64,000 nucleotides of DNA from Methanohalophilus euhalobius. Lineage in GTDB: Archaea; Halobacteriota; Methanosarcinia; Methanosarcinales; Methanosarcinaceae. The stretch spans positions 310,001-374,000 of the forward strand of contig NZ_OBDR01000001.1 in assembly GCF_900215215.1 (NCBI RefSeq), given 5' to 3'. Position numbers and translations under genes: made by a program. Of this stretch, positions 2,335 to 40,174 are shown piece after piece (position 1 is the first letter of the stretch; the number at the start of each line of letters is the position of its first letter). Under the pieces are notes generated by a model that was not told the origin of the DNA, ran no database searches, and worked only from the letters and a program-made list of their open reading frames with translations.

Positions 2335-3417
2335 ATGCAAAAATCATATAAGTTTAGGTTATATCCTACAAAACAACAAGAAATCAAATTGAATAAAACT
2401 CTTGATGTTTGTAGATGTATCTATAATGAATTTCTTGCAGACCGTAGAAATGCATACGAAAGATGTAATTAGGGAATATCTACAATGGAACAATTGTATC
2501 AGGTTCAATACCTTAAATTTGATACAGAAGTACATTCACAAGTCAAGCAGGATGTAATCAGGAGATTAGGAAAATCCTTTGATAGTTTCTTTAGACGATG
2601 TAAGAAAGGAGAGACAAAAGTAGGCTATCCACGTTTCAAAGGTAAAAATAGATATAACAGTTTTACTTATCCTCAATCTGGTTTTAGTATTTCTGGAAAG
2701 AAATTGAAATTATCGAAAATTGGAGAAATTAGGATAGTTCAACATCGGGAAATTGAAGGTAAAATTAAAACTTGTACCATTCGTAGAGATGGAAAACAAT
2801 GGTATGCAACATTTTCTGTTGTAATTAAAAACAATGTAAAACCTGTAGAACCTATTGCCTTCATTGGAATTGATGTGGGACTTAATTCCATTGTAACGTT
2901 AAGTGACGGTGCACAAGTTAATTCTCCAAAATATTATTGCAATACAGAAATAAAATTAAAAAAGCAACAACATGAACTTAGTAGAAAAAAGAAGTTTTCT
3001 AATAACTGGAAAAAGCAATGCGATAAAGTAAACAAATTGCATCGAAAAATACGTAACCAAAGAAATGATTTTAACCATAAGTTAAGTAGAGAATTGATTA
3101 ATGTTTACGATTGTATAGTTTTTGAAGATTTGAATATAAAGGATATGGTAAAAAATTCAAGACTTTCAAAATCTATACATGATGCATCATGGAGTAATCT
3201 AATTCAGTTTACAAAATACAAAGCGGAAGAAGCTGGTAAGTTTGTAAAATTAGTTAACCCATGTAATACATCTCAAATCTGCAGCAATTGTGGTCAAAAC
3301 GTTAAAAAATCATTAGCAACGAGGACACATAATTGCCCCCATTGTGGATTAATTATTGACCGCGACCATAATGCTGCAATTAATATTCTGAATCGTGCTG
3401 TAGGAACTACAGTTTAA
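2335..3417 (+). CDS. tnpB: TnpB RNA-guided nuclease with an in-frame TAG (copy 1)
   Basis: 360-residue TnpB, the RuvC-type RNA-guided nuclease of IS200/IS605 elements. The start is ATG 2335 (MQKSYKFRLYPTKQQE, the canonical TnpB beginning). An in-frame TAG is codon 46 (2470-2472), and the frame then runs open to TAA at 3415. The RuvC acidic residues are present in GIDVGLNS, VFEDLNIKD and DRDHNAAINI, and a CSNCG...CPHCG zinc ribbon precedes the last. The N-terminal 45 residues are family-typical, so translation from the internal ATG 2485 would give a truncated protein. TAG may be decoded as pyrrolysine, or this may be a nonsense allele. The 3' end overlaps the predicted omega RNA. Confidence 0.88.
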
Positions 3418-3634: not shown

Positions 3635-4531
3635 ATGGAACTTGAAAACTTAAGGCACGGTACTGAACTCATTAAAAGAGGTTTTGCCAGAATGCAGAAA
3701 GGCGGGGTTATTATGGATGTAACCAACCCCGAGCAGGCGAGAATCGCCGAAGAAGCAGGGGCTGTGGCTGTAATGGCCCTGCAGGCAGTTCCGGCTGATA
3801 TCCGTAAGGCCGGTGGAGTGGCCAGGATGGCAGATCCGGAAATCGTTGCGCAGATTATTGATACTGTAACAATTCCTGTAATGGCAAAGGCCAGGATCGG
3901 TCATTTTGTGGAAGCTGAAATCCTTGAATCCCTGGGAGCTGATATGGTCGATGAGTCTGAAGTCCTGACTCCTGCAGACGAAATGTACCATATTGATAAA
4001 ACCGGTTTTACTGTTCCTTTTGTATGTGGTGCAAGAAACCTTGGGGAAGCCCTGAGACGTATCAATGAAGGTGCGGCAATGATACGTACCAAAGGTGAAG
4101 CAGGTACCGGGGATGTCCGTGAGGCTGTGCGCCACATGAAAAAGATCATGGGGGAAGTACGTGAACTTGCCGGCAAGGACAAAGAAGAACTCATCAAGGT
4201 TGCCCGTGACATCGAAGCACCCATAGAACTTGTTCTTGAGTCTGCAGACTTACAGCGTTTGCCTGTGGTAAACTTTGCAGCAGGGGGTGTTGCCACTCCA
4301 GCAGATGCTGCCCTAATGATGAGACTGGGTGCAGATGGTGTATTCGTAGGCTCTGGAATTTTCAAAGCTGAAAATCCTGAAATGATGGCTAAAGCAGTTG
4401 TTGAAGCAGTTAATAATTATGATAACCCCAAAAAACTGGCAGAAATTTCCAGGGGAATCGGTTCAGGAATGAAGGGCATGAGTGCTGACACTATACTCCC
4501 TGAAGAAACTTTGCAGACACGTGGCTGGTAA
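3635..4531 (+). CDS. pdxS: Pyridoxal 5'-phosphate synthase lyase subunit PdxS
   Basis: Synthase subunit of the deoxyxylulose-5-phosphate-independent PLP pathway. It condenses ribose 5-phosphate, glyceraldehyde 3-phosphate and ammonia supplied by PdxT. The start chosen is ATG 3635 ([18 protein letters not shown]), giving 298 residues, the usual length; an upstream in-frame TTG adds 13 unlikely residues. Visible motifs are GGVIMDVTN, the catalytic-lysine segment [18 protein letters not shown] and the phosphate loop [12 protein letters not shown]. pdxT follows after 19 nt, so the two probably form one transcript. No promoter motif is obvious beyond the AT-rich stretch at 3570-3595. Confidence 0.97.
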
Positions 4532-4550
4532 ATTATCAACGGTGAAATTG

Positions 4551-5150
4551 ATGCGTATCGGTATAATCGCCATACAAGGTGATGTTTCCGAACATATTGA
4601 TGCCGTAGAACGTGCCCTTTGTGAGAGGGACATTGGAGGTGAAGTGCTGGAAATCCGTCATGAAGGCATTGTGCCCCGATGTGATGCGGTCATATTACCC
4701 GGAGGGGAAAGTACAACATTGGGCCGTCTGATTGAAAGAGAAGGAATTGCAGGTGAAATTCAGAATGCTGCAAAGAACGGCATTCCTGTACTTGGCACCT
4801 GCGCCGGCTTGATCCTTGTTGCAACCCGCGGGGACGAACAGGTGCATAAGACCCATCAGCATCTTCTCGGTCTGATGGATGTAAAAGTGAATCGAAATGC
4901 TTTCGGAAGGCAGCGGGAGTCCTTTGAAATTAATTTAGATCTTGCATTCCTGGATTCTCCCTATACAGCAATTTTTATCCGGGCCCCTGCAATCATGGAT
5001 GCGGGCCCGGAGGTTGATGTATTGTCAACAATTAATGGGAGAATTGTAGCAGCAAGACAAAACAATGTACTTGCTCTGGCTTTCCACCCGGAACTGACGC
5101 CTGATCTACGGTTGCATCATTATTTCCTGGATATGATTTCGGTTACCTGA
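4551..5150 (+). CDS. pdxT: Pyridoxal 5'-phosphate synthase glutaminase subunit PdxT
   Basis: Class I glutamine amidotransferase that releases ammonia for PdxS. The start is ATG 4551 (MRIGIIAIQGDVSEH), giving 199 residues; a longer frame opens inside pdxS but its extra N-terminus is not family-like. The oxyanion segment LPGGESTT, the nucleophile Cys in LGTCAGL, the interface segment RNAFGRQRESFE and the catalytic His-Glu in FHPELTPD are all present. It lies 19 nt downstream of pdxS and both subunits are needed for one enzyme complex. Confidence 0.97.
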   Translation: MRIGIIAIQGDVSEHIDAVERALCERDIGGEVLEIRHEGIVPRCDAVILPGGESTTLGRLIEREGIAGEIQNAAKNGIPVLGTCAGLILVATRGDEQVHKTHQHLLGLMDVKVNRNAFGRQRESFEINLDLAFLDSPYTAIFIRAPAIMDAGPEVDVLSTINGRIVAARQNNVLALAFHPELTPDLRLHHYFLDMISVT

Positions 5151-7474: not shown

Positions 7475-9298
7475 TTACTTGGCCCAGAACGGATTATCCC
7501 TGCGTTTGATTTCAAGGAAAGCATCGAGGGTTTCCATCTCATCTGCCGAAAGTGAGTCAAGTATCTCCGTTTCAAGCACCTTTGCATGCTTTTCGGGAAT
7601 ATTTGAATAAAGTACATCACCTTCTTTGATCTGGCGACCTATTGTTGGTCCATCAATCGCCATTGCAACTTCCATCCCTGCACTGGCTTCCTTGATGTTT
7701 TCTCCTTCTAATTGGAGTCCTTTGATTGTGCCTACAACTCTGCCACTGTTATCTGTAACACCGATGTTAGTTTTGACCTTTCCGCCTGTGATTCTGACAC
7801 CAACAACAGCAGGTTTGCTTTGTCTGAACGTGCAGTCTGGAAGAAGCAGGAATCTTGCAGGTTTTACTATGAGCTGGGATATTGTTTGTTCGGATTTCTC
7901 CTTCTTTTCTTTGACCCAGTCTTTGTAATCATCAATAAGCCTGTAAATAACATCATTCTGGAATATTTTAAGATCGCCACCCTTTGCTTTTTCTTTTGCA
8001 TCAGGTAACATCTTTACATTAAAGCCAATAAGAACCGCATTAAAAGGATCTTCGATAGCCGAAACCTCGATAATATCCCTCTGGGATATGTCTCCTACTT
8101 CGGCTTTTCTGATGGGTATATCCTCCTTCTGGAGTTCATTAACAAGCGCTTCCAGTGATCCGATTGTATCTGCTTTAAGAGTCACACCTGTGGTGCCCGT
8201 ACTAATCTGTACCTCGTCAAGTTCCTCTTGAACCTCTTTGACAATCGTATCAAGGTTTTCCGGGTTGGCCGCTCTTACAGTGGCTCCTGACAGGGCACCA
8301 TCAAGATTTGGCGCAGATATCTTTACACCAATAGCAGCCGTAACTGATTCCACATTCTGGAACTTTTCCTCGGCGGATATTTCTCCCATTGGATTGGGTT
8401 TTAGCAAAGCCCTCACTTTGGTCTGAATAGGCTCCCCAAGACTTCCGACTACAATAGTATCCCCTTTTTTGAGGGTTCCATCATAGAGAATAATATCGAT
8501 GGTAGTTCCCAATCCCTTTTCTTCCTTTACTTCAAGTATTGTTCCTTCACCAGGTCCACTTGCGTTATAATGAAGATTAGATTCGAGGAATTTTTGGGCC
8601 AGCCCCAGTAATACCATAAGCAGGTCAGGTATACCTTCGCCGGTAACCGCGCTTATAGGTATTATTCCTATATTTCTCTGGAAATCAGATACACGGTCAT
8701 AGCGTTCGGAATTAAAACCACTGTTATATAGTTCCCCGACAATTTCATAGAACTTGTTATCAAGATCGGCTCTTACACGTTCACTTTGTTTGTTGTAAGT
8801 TTCCAGAAAACTCGCGCTTTCATGTGGTTGCCAACCATGTATCCTGTCGATCTTATTTGCAACAACCACAAAGGGAGTTTTGAACCGCTTGAGTATTTGC
8901 AGACTTTCTTTTGTCTGGGGCATGAAGCCCTCATTAATGTCTACAATTACCACTGCCAGATCTGCAAGTGCTCCTCCTCTGCTACGCAGGGATGTGAATG
9001 CATGGTGTCCCGGTGTATCTATGAATAAAAGACCGGGTACTATGAAATTGTTCTTCATCCCGGAAGCACCACTATGTTCTATTATGGAATCGATCGTCAC
9101 TTCCGTTGCACCGATATGCTGGGTGATCGCACCGGCTTCTCCTGCAGCCACAGAACTACCGCGTATCCTGTCTAACAGTGTGGTCTTACCGTGATCCACA
9201 TGTCCCATAACGCATACAATGGGTGTCCTGAGATTTTCGTTATCGGTAATATGCATCCCTTCCTTAAGAAACAGGGGAGTGAGCAAAAGGGTACTCAC
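7475..9298 (-). CDS. infB: Translation initiation factor aIF5B (IF-2 homologue)
   Basis: GTPase that promotes initiator tRNA placement and ribosomal subunit joining. G1 [10 protein letters not shown]3 DTPGH and G4 NKID are present, followed by the IF2/eIF5B beta-barrel domains and the C-terminal segment. There is no intein. The first ATG overlaps the ndk stop codon and gives 607 residues. A second ATG at 9256 ([16 protein letters not shown]) resembles the N-terminus of relatives more closely and may be the real start. It sits in an operon with ribosomal proteins. Confidence 0.96.
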
Positions 9299-36471: not shown

Positions 36472-36933
36472 TTATTTTGAGCCTTGTGAAAATCCGCTTG
36501 TTTCTTCTATGAATTGTTCAACTCTCTTTTTTATTGTGTCTCTCAAATTCCTCATTTGTTCCAGCTTTTCTTCATGTGTGCCTGTGAAATTTTCAGGTTC
36601 CGGGAATGGCCAGTATAATTTTGCAAAGGGTTTTGGGTATATAGGACATCTCTTCTCGTGCTCTCTGTCGCAAACAGTGATTACGAAATGGAAAAATTTA
36701 CCTGCCCGGAAAAGGTCCCATGCATCCTGGGTCTTTTTCTTTGTGAGGTCGAATCCATCTTCCTTCATTACTTCAAGGACGAGTGAATTAATCTGTTCGG
36801 GTTCAAAACCCGCACTCTCAGCTTCGAACTTGCCTTCTCCAAGTCTTTTCAGGTATTCTTCTGCTATCTGGCTTCTTGCACTGTTGTGCACACAAATGAA
36901 AAGTACTTTGATATTTTCGTTGCTTTCTTTCAT
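36472..36933 (-). CDS. Arsenate reductase/low-molecular-weight phosphatase-like protein
   Basis: 153 residues. The phosphate loop is CVHNSARS (C-x5-R) near residue 13, and the later CDREHEKRCPIYPK segment carries the extra cysteines of thioredoxin-coupled ArsC. The acid-loop region reads WPFPEPENF, with Glu where Asp is usual. It would reduce arsenate or act as a tyrosine phosphatase. It lies 141 nt from the sulfur-cluster genes in the same orientation but is probably separate. Confidence 0.85.
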   Translation of the reverse strand: MKESNENIKVLFICVHNSARSQIAEEYLKRLGEGKFEAESAGFEPEQINSLVLEVMKEDGFDLTKKKTQDAWDLFRAGKFFHFVITVCDREHEKRCPIYPKPFAKLYWPFPEPENFTGTHEEKLEQMRNLRDTIKKRVEQFIEETSGFSQGSK

Positions 36934-37074: not shown

Positions 37075-37674
37075 TCACTTTAATTTCCCTGCAAGTTCCT
37101 CGCCCATTTCGAAAGCCTTTTTAAGCGCTGCTTCATCCTTTTTGATAATTCCCCTGTCAAATTGGTTAAGCACAGACATCGCCTTATCCACTGTGTATCC
37201 CAGGGCTTCCAGGGGATAACTCATGGCTTCCAGGCTGAACCCGATATCTTCAATGATAGGTTGCTCTCCAATGGTGAAAACGCAGGCACGTCTTCCCTGT
37301 CCTGCCAGCCGGCTGGAATACTCACGTGGTCTGTCATCTGTGAAATTGTAGTAAGGATAGAGGCGATCTATGAAGGTTTTCATAAGGGAGGTAACGTTGT
37401 AATTGTAGGTAGGGGAACCAAGCACCATACCTTTTGCTTCTTCGATCTTCGGATACAGTAAATTCATCCCGTCATCGTCATGGAAGCGGGTACAGGTCTT
37501 ATCCTGGTGACATCTTTCACATCCCACGCAGGACTCAATACTGTAATCCCGCAGATGTACTATCCCGACTGTAGCACCGTTACTTTTTGCGCCTTCCATT
37601 ACCTCATCCAGCAATACGTCAGTATTGCCTGCCTTCCTGGGGCTTGCACAGATTCCCAGGATATCTATTGTAAT
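37075..37674 (-). CDS. Iron-sulfur flavoprotein (Isf-like), apparent ATT start
   Basis: About 199 residues. Flavodoxin-like FMN site GICASPRKAGNTDVLLDEV, compact cysteine motif CVGCERCHQDKTC for a [4Fe-4S] cluster, and LGSPTYNYNVTSLMKTFIDR. Family-like residues begin at ITIDILGICAS, upstream of any ATG, GTG or TTG in frame. An ATT at 37674 sits 8 nt after GAGGAGG and is the likely start. Isf proteins transfer electrons, for example to oxygen or peroxide in Methanosarcina. It follows iscU by 23 nt and is probably in the same operon. Confidence 0.8.
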   Translation of the reverse strand: MTIDILGICASPRKAGNTDVLLDEVMEGAKSNGATVGIVHLRDYSIESCVGCERCHQDKTCTRFHDDDGMNLLYPKIEEAKGMVLGSPTYNYNVTSLMKTFIDRLYPYYNFTDDRPREYSSRLAGQGRRACVFTIGEQPIIEDIGFSLEAMSYPLEALGYTVDKAMSVLNQFDRGIIKKDEAALKKAFEMGEELAGKLK

Positions 37675-37697: not shown

Positions 37698-38342
37698 TTA
37701 TTCTGTGAAAACGACCTTCACTTCTTCGATATCCCAGAGTGACTCTACTTTCTCCAGAATATCCTCTTTAATAGCCGATGCGAACTGGTGATCTGAAGGA
37801 AGGTCTATAAGTATTCTCACAGAACCCTCATTTATCTCTATCTTTGTCACAAGTTCCGTCCTGACTATATCCAGCCCCGCCATGGGATTCATGACATGTT
37901 TCAGGCGCCTTCTGACGACTTCTTCAGTAGTAGTTTCTTTCTCACTCACAAGGCCATGCTTTTCTTCATAATCCCTAATTGCCGCCCTCAAACCTTCCAC
38001 AGCCAGTACTGAACAGTGTGCTTTTACTGTGGGCAGCCCCCCTAGTTCTTCGGTGGCTTGCTTCCATGAGATATTTTTGGCTTCTTCCAGGGTCTTTCCC
38101 TTGGCCATTTCGGTAATTATGGAAGCTGTAGCGATATTGGATGCACATCCATAGGATTCAAATTTTATATCCTCTATCACCAGGGTTTCGGAATTGACAT
38201 TCAGGTATACTGCCACCATGTCACCACATGCCGGACTTCCTTCCAGCCCCTTGCCATCCGGGTTTTCTATTTTACCCACATTCCGGGGGTTTTTAAAGTG
38301 ATCAAGAACTTTTTCACTGTAAGGGAATTTCACATTAAACAC
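37698..38342 (-). CDS. iscU: IscU scaffold fused to a MIP18/DUF59-like domain
   Basis: 214 residues. The N-terminal IscU domain (1-125) has the three cluster cysteines in SPACGDM, SYGCASN and AHCSVLA. After a short linker, residues 140-214 resemble DUF59/MIP18 (NPMAGLDIVRTELVTKIEIN), a domain of iron-sulfur targeting proteins. The gene is 1 nt from the IscS-like gene. The fusion suggests that cluster assembly and delivery are joined in one chain. Confidence 0.9.
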   Translation of the reverse strand: MFNVKFPYSEKVLDHFKNPRNVGKIENPDGKGLEGSPACGDMVAVYLNVNSETLVIEDIKFESYGCASNIATASIITEMAKGKTLEEAKNISWKQATEELGGLPTVKAHCSVLAVEGLRAAIRDYEEKHGLVSEKETTTEEVVRRRLKHVMNPMAGLDIVRTELVTKIEINEGSVRILIDLPSDHQFASAIKEDILEKVESLWDIEEVKVVFTE

Positions 38343-38343
38343 C

Positions 38344-39510
38344 TCACTTTTTCTCGTACAATGGACTAATTTCTCTTAATTGAGCAACGATTTCCTTTAT
38401 CGCATCCACCATGGCATCGGTTTCCTCAAGGGTATTGTAACGACTGAAGGTAAAGCGCAATGACCCATGGGCCCTTTCATGGTCTCCCCCTATGCCCAGT
38501 ATAACGTGACTTGCTTCAAGGGAGCGGCTAAAGCACGCAGAACCAGTGCTGACCGCAAATCCACGCATATCCAGATGTAGGGTAAGTGATTCACCTTCTA
38601 CATAATGGAGCGTTATGTTGGCATTATGTGGACTCCTGTGTTCCTTACTTCCGTTTAATATTACATCCGTAATTTCACTGGATATTCTCTCTATAAGATG
38701 GTCTCTAAGTGCTTTGATCTGCCTGTTTTCCTCTTCTGTCACAAGTTCTACTGCTTTTGCAAATCCTACGGCCCCCGGTATATTTTCAAGGCCCGCCCTG
38801 AGGTTGAATTCCTGGAATCCACCGTCCATCCATTTATTGATAGGTGTGTCTTTGCGTATATAGAGCCCTCCAACACCACGGGGTCCATGTATGGTATGTG
38901 ATGCAACCGTTATCAGGTCCACAGGAATTTTTTGTACATCTATTGGAACGCGTGTGAAACTATGGGTGGCATCTGTATGCAGAAGTACTCCTTTCTCCCT
39001 GCATATGTTTGAAATGCTTTCCAGATCCTGCAGCGTACCTATTTCCTGATTGGCATGCTGTATCGAGACGAGAACAGTTTCGTCTGTGATCGTCTCGGCA
39101 AGTTGTTCTGTATTTAGCCGACCAGTGTCATCCACTTCAATGAAATCGACTTCAAAACCCTGTTTTTCCAGTGCTTTTGCGGTGTTCAGGACGGGGAAAT
39201 CCTCGATTTTTGAGACAATAAGGTGTTTCCCCTTCTTTTTGAGCGCAGATGTTACTCCCTTTATTGCCATATTGCTTGATTCGGTGCTTCCGGATGTGAA
39301 AACAATTTCTCCCGGCGAAGCATTTAATGAATCTGCAATTGTGGACCTTGCTTCTTCAAGCGCCTCCTTTGCATCAATACCCATCGAATAGGCAAACTCT
39401 GATGTTGCCACTGCATAAGTATCAAAATAATACGGCTTCATTGCCTCAAACACTCTTTCATCCAACCGTGTGCTTGCGGAATTATCAAAATAAGCAGTTT
39501 TGTCTTCCAT
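38344..39510 (-). CDS. IscS/NifS-like protein lacking the PLP lysine
   Basis: 388 residues with the class V aminotransferase fold and the mobile-loop Cys (STGSACFSRSLE). The Schiff-base lysine of GHKIYGPKG is Thr here (SHTIHGPRG). Other PLP contacts also differ: SKIEDFPV in place of EHxAV, ANQEIG for NNEIG, and DATHS for DATQS. It therefore probably does not bind PLP or desulfurate cysteine. Archaeoglobus fulgidus IscS similarly lacks the lysine and serves structurally with IscU. It is coupled to iscU and downstream of dsrE-like and tusA genes. Confidence 0.88.
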   Translation of the reverse strand: MEDKTAYFDNSASTRLDERVFEAMKPYYFDTYAVATSEFAYSMGIDAKEALEEARSTIADSLNASPGEIVFTSGSTESSNMAIKGVTSALKKKGKHLIVSKIEDFPVLNTAKALEKQGFEVDFIEVDDTGRLNTEQLAETITDETVLVSIQHANQEIGTLQDLESISNICREKGVLLHTDATHSFTRVPIDVQKIPVDLITVASHTIHGPRGVGGLYIRKDTPINKWMDGGFQEFNLRAGLENIPGAVGFAKAVELVTEEENRQIKALRDHLIERISSEITDVILNGSKEHRSPHNANITLHYVEGESLTLHLDMRGFAVSTGSACFSRSLEASHVILGIGGDHERAHGSLRFTFSRYNTLEETDAMVDAIKEIVAQLREISPLYEKK

Positions 39511-39518
39511 ACAATTCC

Positions 39519-39947
39519 TCAGATAAACAATGTAATCTCTGCATCTTTTGCTTCATGGACATAGGTGCCCACAGCACCATATTCATCAATCCATTCGGTA
39601 CGTAGCTGTTCTTGTTTGATTCCCATAATTTCCATGGTCATTTCACAGGCAATTATTTTACCCCCCAGTTCCTTGAAATCGGTCATCATTTTTTCAAGAG
39701 GAGCTACATTGGCCTTTTTCATCCTGCTTTTGACCATCCATTTTCCAAGCCCCAGGAAATTCATTTTGGAGAAGGGACCCTTTTCGAGTCCTCCTTTTTT
39801 CAACCGCTCAAGGCCCCAGAAAGTAAAATACAGGGAAACTTCCATTCCCATCGACAGTGAACCATTTGCAATAATGAGTGCACTGTACAGTTTGTCCATG
39901 TCTCCGCTATGGACTATTATGACGGTTTTATTGCTCACAGAAACCAA
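39519..39947 (-). CDS. DsrE/DsrF-like sulfur-transfer protein
   Basis: 142 residues of the DsrE-like family (peroxiredoxin-like COG2210 group): VIIVHSGDMDKLYSALIIANG, then FWGLERLKKGG and a candidate active Cys in IIACEMTMEIMG. It is 5 nt downstream of tusA and 8 nt upstream of the IscS-like gene. This order suggests relay of persulfide sulfur. The ATG at 39947 has a ribosome binding site (AAAAGGGTTGG). Confidence 0.85.
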   Translation of the reverse strand: MVSVSNKTVIIVHSGDMDKLYSALIIANGSLSMGMEVSLYFTFWGLERLKKGGLEKGPFSKMNFLGLGKWMVKSRMKKANVAPLEKMMTDFKELGGKIIACEMTMEIMGIKQEQLRTEWIDEYGAVGTYVHEAKDAEITLFI

Positions 39948-39952
39948 CCCTT

Positions 39953-40174
39953 TTAACGCTTAATTCTGATTTTCCACTCATCAGCTTCTTCATCGATACC
40001 TATAATTTCAAGCCCCATGGATTCACAGGCCATTGGTATCTCCTTCTTTGAAGCTGGATGTGTGCCGGTGACTATGACTTCGTCTCCCGGTGTAGCTTTT
40101 CTCAGTGCCTTCCTGCATTCAACTAGCGGTACCGGGCAGGTCTCTCCCCTTGTATCTACTTCTATTTTTGTCAT
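39953..40174 (-). CDS. tusA: TusA/SirA-family sulfur carrier
   Basis: 73 residues with the CPxP motif (RGETCPVPLVECRKALR) whose Cys carries persulfide, and the KEIPMACESMG segment. It is first in the sulfur cluster and is followed after 5 nt by the DsrE-like gene. AGGGGAAAAGAA upstream gives a ribosome binding site. It probably delivers sulfur for tRNA thiolation, cofactor or iron-sulfur biogenesis. Confidence 0.92.
   Translation of the reverse strand: MTKIEVDTRGETCPVPLVECRKALRKATPGDEVIVTGTHPASKKEIPMACESMGLEIIGIDEEADEWKIRIKR

Follow-up and report, generated by a model that had tools for sequence, protein, structure and literature searches.

A tusA-dsrE-iscS-iscU operon with an IscS-like protein lacking the PLP lysine: a candidate sulfur relay of anaerobic archaea and bacteria

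Four adjoining genes and their products

The window, a 64,000-nucleotide stretch of the 1.94-Mb Methanohalophilus euhalobius genome (G000), carries on its minus strand four genes in the 5' to 3' order tusA, dsrE, iscS* and iscU::MIP18, separated by gaps of 5, 8 and 1 bases. The first, tusA (39953..40174), encodes a 73-aa TusA-family sulfur carrier with the CPxP cysteine C13 (PF01206, E 4.2e-22; 78.2 bits against a cut-off of 28.6). It is followed by dsrE (39519..39947), whose 142-aa product, as called, is DsrE2-like and carries a cysteine at C101; this protein matches DrsE_2 (PF13686, E 3.9e-35) at 121.6 bits against a cut-off of 25 and scores 62.5 bits against the curated DsrE2 sulfur carrier model NF047629, whose cut-off is 210. 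The third gene (38344..39510) encodes a 388-aa IscS/NifS-like protein without the PLP lysine, here designated IscS*. The last, iscU::MIP18 (37698..38342), encodes a 214-aa fusion of an IscU/NifU_N scaffold (residues 8-129; PF01592, E 1.4e-43) with a FeS_assembly_P/MIP18-type domain (residues 140-210; PF01883, E 7.9e-13), and its IscU domain keeps the three cluster cysteines together with the Asp and His (C39, D41, C66, H109 and C110). An earlier note, made from this sequence alone, had placed TusA and a DsrE-like gene upstream of the IscS-like gene and an IscU-MIP18 fusion downstream, and Pfam confirmed all of these assignments. Further downstream lie a flavodoxin/FMN-reductase-like gene (37075-37614, minus strand) and an ArsC-like low-molecular-weight phosphatase gene (36472-36933, minus strand), neither of which is a conserved neighbour at other loci.

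The Pfam match of IscS* to Aminotran_5 (E 4.4e-73) and an AlphaFold2 model together assign it the aminotransferase class V, IscS-like fold. The model, with a pLDDT of 85.6 and residues 30-41 and 228-242 below 50, answered the structural check proposed in the earlier note: as regards the backbone fold only, it matched the 25 best-ranked IscS/NFS1 chains at TM 0.81-0.92 (0.87-0.92 for the best 23), including a TM of 0.88 to E. coli 3LVJ and 1P3W. IscS* scores below the NCBIfam equivalog cut-offs of both TIGR03402 (427.2 versus 530.75 bits) and TIGR02006 (378.9 versus 643.2 bits). The nearest solved sequences are those of Archaeoglobus fulgidus IscS, and the nearest named relative of the window's genome, Methanohalophilus sp. 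RSK, has an IscS* that is 97% identical.

A rebuilt and fixed cofactor pocket

Pocket positions are given in what we take to be the residue numbering of E. coli IscS. Alignment of the window sequence placed Thr206 (codon 38893..38895) at the Schiff-base lysine K206, Asp104 (39199..39201) at the PLP-stacking histidine H104, Gln155 (39046..39048) at N155, the second Asn of the NNEIG motif, and His183 (38962..38964) at Q183, the Gln of DATQS, all codons lying on the minus strand. D180, H205, R352 (E. coli R354) and the mobile-loop persulfide cysteine Cys326 (E. coli Cys328; codon 38533..38535, minus strand) are kept. Three reference proteins were compared at positions 206/104/155/183: A. fulgidus IscS reads D/H/N/A, and chain 9wep reads K/H/N/Q, as does the Lys-bearing IscS encoded elsewhere in this genome, against T/D/Q/H in IscS* of the window. 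The loss of these four PLP contacts with retention of the loop cysteine, as the earlier note had read it, was therefore borne out by the alignment.

The same pocket recurs among 80 relatives at 60-97% identity, which were kept out of 112 confirmed stretches from one scan of genome contigs. Residue 206 is Thr in 78 of them, Ala in one and Leu in one; the Schiff-base lysine is found in 0/80, whereas it is present in 30/30 Lys-bearing comparison proteins. Conservation of the Thr across orthologues was a check set beforehand by the earlier note, which had named Lys-bearing orthologues as evidence against itself, and since lysine occurs at this position in none of the 80 relatives its reading of a lost PLP site stands. 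D104 is kept in 78/80, and Q155 in 78/80, a biased count, since IQHANQEI figured among the six search patterns; departures at 206, 104 or 155 concern six relatives, at one position apiece. H183, F105, N10 and D180 are each found in 80/80, as are the loop cysteine C326 and the substrate-carboxylate residue R352, and H205 in 79/80. A single-strain mutation or a pseudogene is ruled out, as the 80 relatives share the change and 73 of the 122 genomes of the window's order encode a protein at least 70% identical to IscS*, among the matches listed. Two of these 73 matches are partial (G072 and G083), and among the matches listed everything below 70% is separated by a gap that reaches down to 51%.

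The changes are centred on the pocket. Nine of the 388 positions are fixed but different between the 80 IscS* and the 30 Lys-bearing proteins, and four of these nine fall among the 11 positions that we take, from E. coli IscS/NifS structures, to be the PLP and substrate contacts (hypergeometric P 4e-5). Conservation in at least 78/80 was observed for 8/11 contact positions versus 128/388 positions overall (P 0.007). Such a pocket-centred change, fixed ever since, points to repurposing or strict packing and not to decay, and we infer from these residues that IscS* binds no PLP.

A protein that still held PLP, through another lysine such as K226 or without a Schiff base, would be a desulfurase after all. 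It would be accommodated by the part of the phosphate cup that is kept (T76 in 74/80, S203 in 67/80, and H205), by the carboxylate-binding R352 and by the invariance of K226, a position that is not Lys in any of the three reference proteins. This is nevertheless highly improbable, given that four contacts have been replaced together, that position 243' is Leu, Val or Ile in 71/80 IscS*, and that the Lys-less A. fulgidus protein has been reported to be inactive (PMC7585200).

The pocket may instead have been rebuilt around a new ligand or reaction, involving a metal, thiosulfate, polysulfide or another small molecule, which would make IscS* a new enzyme. The substituted residues show the same degree of fixation as catalytic ones, contact positions are enriched among the most conserved, and invariant K226 and near-invariant H208 and H312 all differ from the three reference proteins; yet these fixed residues could merely fill an empty PLP cavity. 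We regard a new enzyme as rather unlikely, and it would be compatible with a sulfur relay through the same protein.

Spread of the operon and a parallel in Archaeoglobus

The archaeal records among the relatives are labelled as Methanosarcinaceae and other methanogens, Methanofastidiosum, Theionarchaea, Thermoplasmata and Heimdallarchaeota, and the remainder as Dehalococcoidia and other Chloroflexota, Syntrophales, 'Deltaproteobacteria', Clostridia, Halanaerobiales, Atribacteria, Actinobacteria, WOR-3 and others; because many of these records are metagenome-assembled, individual labels may be in error. In an 84-row tree that included 34 IscS* proteins, the latter formed a clade of their own (100/100 support) in which archaea and bacteria are intermingled, which suggests transfer between the two domains.

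The gene neighbourhood is conserved along with the protein. All of tusA, dsrE and iscU adjoin iscS* in 69/80 loci, and at least one of tusA and dsrE lies upstream in 76/80, two of the remaining four being cut by a contig end. Six of the incomplete loci, L047, L048, L050, L059, L067 and L069, run into a contig end no more than about 500 bases from the gene, on the side where the part is missing; the other five, L017, L029, L040, L081 and L085, either truly depart from the arrangement or contain genes that escaped detection. L081 and L085, from metagenome-assembled Methanobacteriaceae, show the greatest divergence (60-63% identity); tusA and dsrE are present there and iscU was not found downstream. 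The cysteines that a relay would use are retained in the operon homologues: TusA C13 in 72/73, DsrE C101 in 74/76, and IscU C39, C66 and C110 in 76/76, 76/76 and 75/76, respectively.

Antisense shadow frames aside, the four genes have no other conserved neighbouring family at the 80 loci. We considered and rejected a wider operon including the CobW-like, small membrane protein, flavodoxin-like or ArsC-like gene, as the next commonest neighbour occurs at only 16/80 loci; HcyBio, a protein of sulfur incorporation in homocysteine biosynthesis, and Thi4 were likewise excluded as standing neighbours (1/80 and 2/80 loci, respectively). A cluster of sulfur genes does lie beside the operon of one Dehalococcoidales record (L024), with HcyBio assigned by Pfam and Thi4- and FdhD-like genes assigned by eye and BLAST (3649-4857, 2541-3314 and 7848-8639, all minus strand). 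At 11/80 loci, all of them methanogen records (for example L029, 7839-8375, plus strand), the operon is followed by a gene for a DUF2284 protein that is predicted to bind metal.

Within the window's order, dsrE occurs in 71/122 genomes, all of which belong to the 73 with IscS* among the matches listed. The two IscS*-bearing genomes without dsrE are G083, whose contig starts inside iscS*, and G090 (locus L029), in which iscS* is intact, only a 48-aa dsrE fragment (E 6e-4) remains upstream and tusA was not found nearby; the dsrE match of G109 is weak and contains four stops. The ten genomes of g6 have kept dsrE, but at a distance from iscS* or on a separate contig; tusA still adjoins dsrE in the two examined (G045 and G048). 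This co-occurrence without co-location supports a functional link between dsrE and iscS*.

A related genome (G005) encodes one IscS-like protein with the residue pattern of A. fulgidus IscS, likewise in the order tusA-dsrE-iscS-iscU, with its iscU fused to a pyridine-nucleotide-disulfide-oxidoreductase-like domain. We assembled 118 loci, comprising 30 obtained by searching 392 genomes of the phylum for the G005 protein, 60 more taken in descending order from the list of matches, and 28 Lys-bearing loci of genomes that carry IscS*, with two further IscS* loci left out, and scored tusA or dsrE as upstream when found on the same strand within 1.5 kb by HMM or BLAST at E 1e-4. Loci encoding an Asp206 protein had tusA and/or dsrE directly upstream in 47/48 cases (26 both, 15 tusA only, 6 dsrE only, 1 neither), whereas the count for Lys206 loci was 0/70; because the rows are related, the 118 loci are not independent tests. 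PLP-less IscS is thus closely linked to upstream tusA/dsrE genes, an association that may rest on few events.

At one of these loci (L230), the gene behind dsrE encodes a protein with 99.7% identity to the A. fulgidus IscS that was crystallised, and its genome has a second Asp206 copy behind tusA-dsrE (L220). The dsrE at L230 (1345-1629, plus strand) seems to have lost its start by rearrangement, and the L220 copy looks whole. Elsewhere, at L195 (4897-6228, minus strand) and L197-L202, IscU is fused to a thioredoxin-reductase-like domain behind an A. fulgidus-type iscS with dsrE and mostly tusA; this oxidoreductase domain is possibly a built-in persulfide or disulfide reductase.

The earlier note had likened the window protein to the PLP-free IscS of A. 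fulgidus, and the likeness holds in part. The A. fulgidus protein (PDB 4EB5, 4EB7 and 4HVK; D199K mutant 4R5F) resembles IscS* in lacking the Schiff-base lysine, in keeping the loop cysteine and in having an IscU partner, and the two types share tusA and/or dsrE directly upstream and iscU downstream. Their pockets differ: at positions 206/183/205 the A. fulgidus type has Asp/Ala/Asn, and it retains His104 but has Leu, Val or Glu in place of the substrate Arg, whereas IscS* has Thr/His/His, with Asp104 and the substrate Arg (R352) kept. A point against a relay fed by TusA is that the residue corresponding to the TusA-binding W45 of E. coli IscS is Ile, Leu or Val in IscS*, and E49 is kept in 77/80 IscS* but only 7/48 of the A. 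fulgidus type. The DsrE of the A. fulgidus type leans towards PF02635 or gives a near tie, while that of the window is clearly PF13686. We therefore accepted the common operon context and rejected the identity of the two proteins, their pocket residues being different.

IscS* and the A. fulgidus type each form one clade, and these clades are separate in both IQ-TREE trees; in the tree without the pocket columns they sit on different branches among the Lys proteins, with 0/200 bootstraps placing all Lys proteins on one side. In a FastTree run, IscS*, the A. fulgidus type and the Lys proteins were all clans. A single PLP-less clade costs 7.4 log units and is not rejected by the AU test (p 0.362), and for this reason two independent origins are favoured here without being claimed as proven.

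Proposed sulfur transfer and comparison with known systems

Taking the gene set and its conserved cysteines together, we propose, with a probability of roughly 0.6, that the four genes constitute an ISC module free of cysteine desulfurase. Sulfane sulfur would travel on the conserved cysteines of TusA and the DsrE2-like protein and be transferred to Cys326 of an IscS-like dimer that would itself lack PLP enzyme activity; from there the mobile loop would deliver the sulfur to the IscU domain, where the cluster would be assembled, and the fused MIP18-type domain, with a role assumed from its family, may help to pass the cluster on. The direction of flow from TusA to IscS*, opposite to that in E. 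coli, the order TusA-DsrE-IscS* and the product are all parts of this proposal. In a crystal of the E. coli IscS-TusA complex, Cys19 of TusA and Cys328' of IscS lie about 4 A apart (PMC2854127), a geometry that by analogy could serve transfer in either direction. TusA and IscU have been reported to bind different but competing places on E. coli IscS (PMC2854127; PMC11302665), and TusA there receives sulfur from IscS (PMC2854127).

IscS* might move no sulfur at all, acting as a structural partner whose loop cysteine is a ligand of the IscU cluster while sulfide enters IscU directly. This has been proposed in print for A. fulgidus IscS and suggested by the authors for Methanosarcina acetivorans IscS1 (PMC7585200), and an invariant Cys326 would suit it; however, it gives no reason why tusA and dsrE stand upstream of the PLP-less iscS genes of both types and of none of the Lys-bearing ones, and it leaves the conserved cysteines of TusA and DsrE unexplained. 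We consider it improbable as the sole role, although the two roles are compatible.

A further question is where the sulfur comes from. Ordinary desulfurases are encoded in the window's genome as well, namely one IscS that has the lysine (45% identity) and two proteins of SufS type in which GHK is present, so one of them could charge TusA. Another NifS/SufS-like protein was found in 34 of the 40 IscS* genomes searched (from 40 of the 80 loci; E 1e-20), and in E. coli it is IscS that charges TusA (PMC2854127). Cysteine may accordingly still be the source, with TusA and DsrE passing its sulfur to IscS* as a second platform that commits it to its own IscU, but we give this arrangement a limited chance. 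In six of the 40 genomes, all metagenome-assembled (two Methanofastidiosum, one Methanothrix, two Dehalococcoidia and one WOR-3), IscS* is the only NifS-like match, and two other Aminotran_5 proteins of these genomes resemble SerC- and AGT-type aminotransferases by eye. The parallel A. fulgidus type also tells against a cysteine source. A search with ordinary IscS covered 15 genomes, two of them from other families and 13 from family f9, which we take to be Archaeoglobaceae because it holds the protein 99.7% identical to A. fulgidus IscS. In 13/13 f9 genomes, five of them single-contig, the only near-full-length matches were Asp206 proteins, and a Lys-bearing IscS/SufS-type protein was not found. 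IscU of this family would therefore not be fed cysteine sulfur by an IscS/SufS-type enzyme, an unrelated enzyme being possible, and the case against cysteine is stronger for A. fulgidus-type genomes than for the window's genome.

The preferred reading, a relay from TusA and DsrE through IscS* to IscU, thus leaves sulfide, polysulfide, thiosulfate and cysteine, the last through an ordinary desulfurase, as candidates for the first donor. The earlier note had proposed a relay fed by sulfide or persulfide rather than cysteine; its persulfide relay with IscS* as the platform agrees with the cysteines conserved in TusA, DsrE, IscS* and IscU, but sulfide in place of cysteine is only one candidate source, given the ordinary desulfurases of the genome. 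A broader reading, which we put forward as tentative, is that ISC may have been uncoupled from cysteine more than once, with TusA/DsrE loading sulfane sulfur derived from sulfide or polysulfide onto PLP-free IscS in anaerobic archaea and bacteria, with the Thr206 pocket having acquired a new ligand or catalytic role, and with this being the sole IscS-type route in the A. fulgidus-type family.

Part of this picture is already known. Deere et al. (2020) described M. acetivorans IscS1 as lacking the Schiff-base lysine and having other PLP residues altered, reported that IscS1/IscU1 (MA0808/MA0807) cluster with four further genes of unknown function, called IscS1 possibly non-functional or A. fulgidus-like, obtained the recombinant protein in inclusion bodies, and attributed the reported lack of desulfurase activity of A. 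fulgidus IscS to its Lys to Asp change (PMC7585200). This pair resembles that of the window in its STGSACFS loop, its 24-kDa IscU1, the missing lysine and the altered PLP residues (PMC7585200), and genomes of genus g11 of the window's order encode proteins 70-75% identical to IscS*, among the matches listed; M. acetivorans IscS1/IscU1 almost certainly belong to the same orthologous group. The main text of that paper does not use the name TusA, and its gene-cluster and Discussion sections mention neither the spread to bacteria nor the fixed new pocket. Among open-access papers in PubMed Central, no description of a tusA-dsrE operon with a Lys-less IscS was found at the level of title and abstract. 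As far as open-access papers tell, the new elements are the association with tusA/dsrE throughout the class, the fixation of the altered pocket, its spread, and the difference from IscS that carries the lysine.

The route by which sulfide enters the Fe-S clusters of strict anaerobes such as methanogens is not settled. Methanococcus maripaludis uses sulfide, and deletion of sufBC in M. acetivorans, in a 2023 follow-up, indicated that SufBC is dispensable, with no sulfide-specific phenotype (PMC10500019). The present module of four genes, conserved and apparently mobile, with its probably PLP-free IscS, offers a concrete and genetically tractable candidate for sulfide entry, and its gene set suggests that anaerobes hand IscS* ready-made sulfur instead of having IscS* extract it from cysteine. 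Feeding by TusA/DsrE would also offer an explanation for the crystallised A. fulgidus IscS without desulfurase activity. An annotation as 'IscS' does not by itself imply a cysteine desulfurase.

Collectively, the operon can be set beside three further systems. The MIS system of methanogens (MisS-MisU; Garcia et al. 2022), as described in PMC12442378, is a minimal archaeal IscS-IscU pair. E. coli IscS, the hub of ISC and tRNA thiolation, has in common with IscS* the fold, the loop cysteine and the partners TusA and IscU; it is, however, a PLP desulfurase that gives sulfur to TusA, whereas IscS* would receive sulfur from TusA. In sulfur oxidisers, TusA and DsrE-family carriers are encoded together and feed sulfur oxidation, whereas the operon described here ends in an Fe-S scaffold instead.
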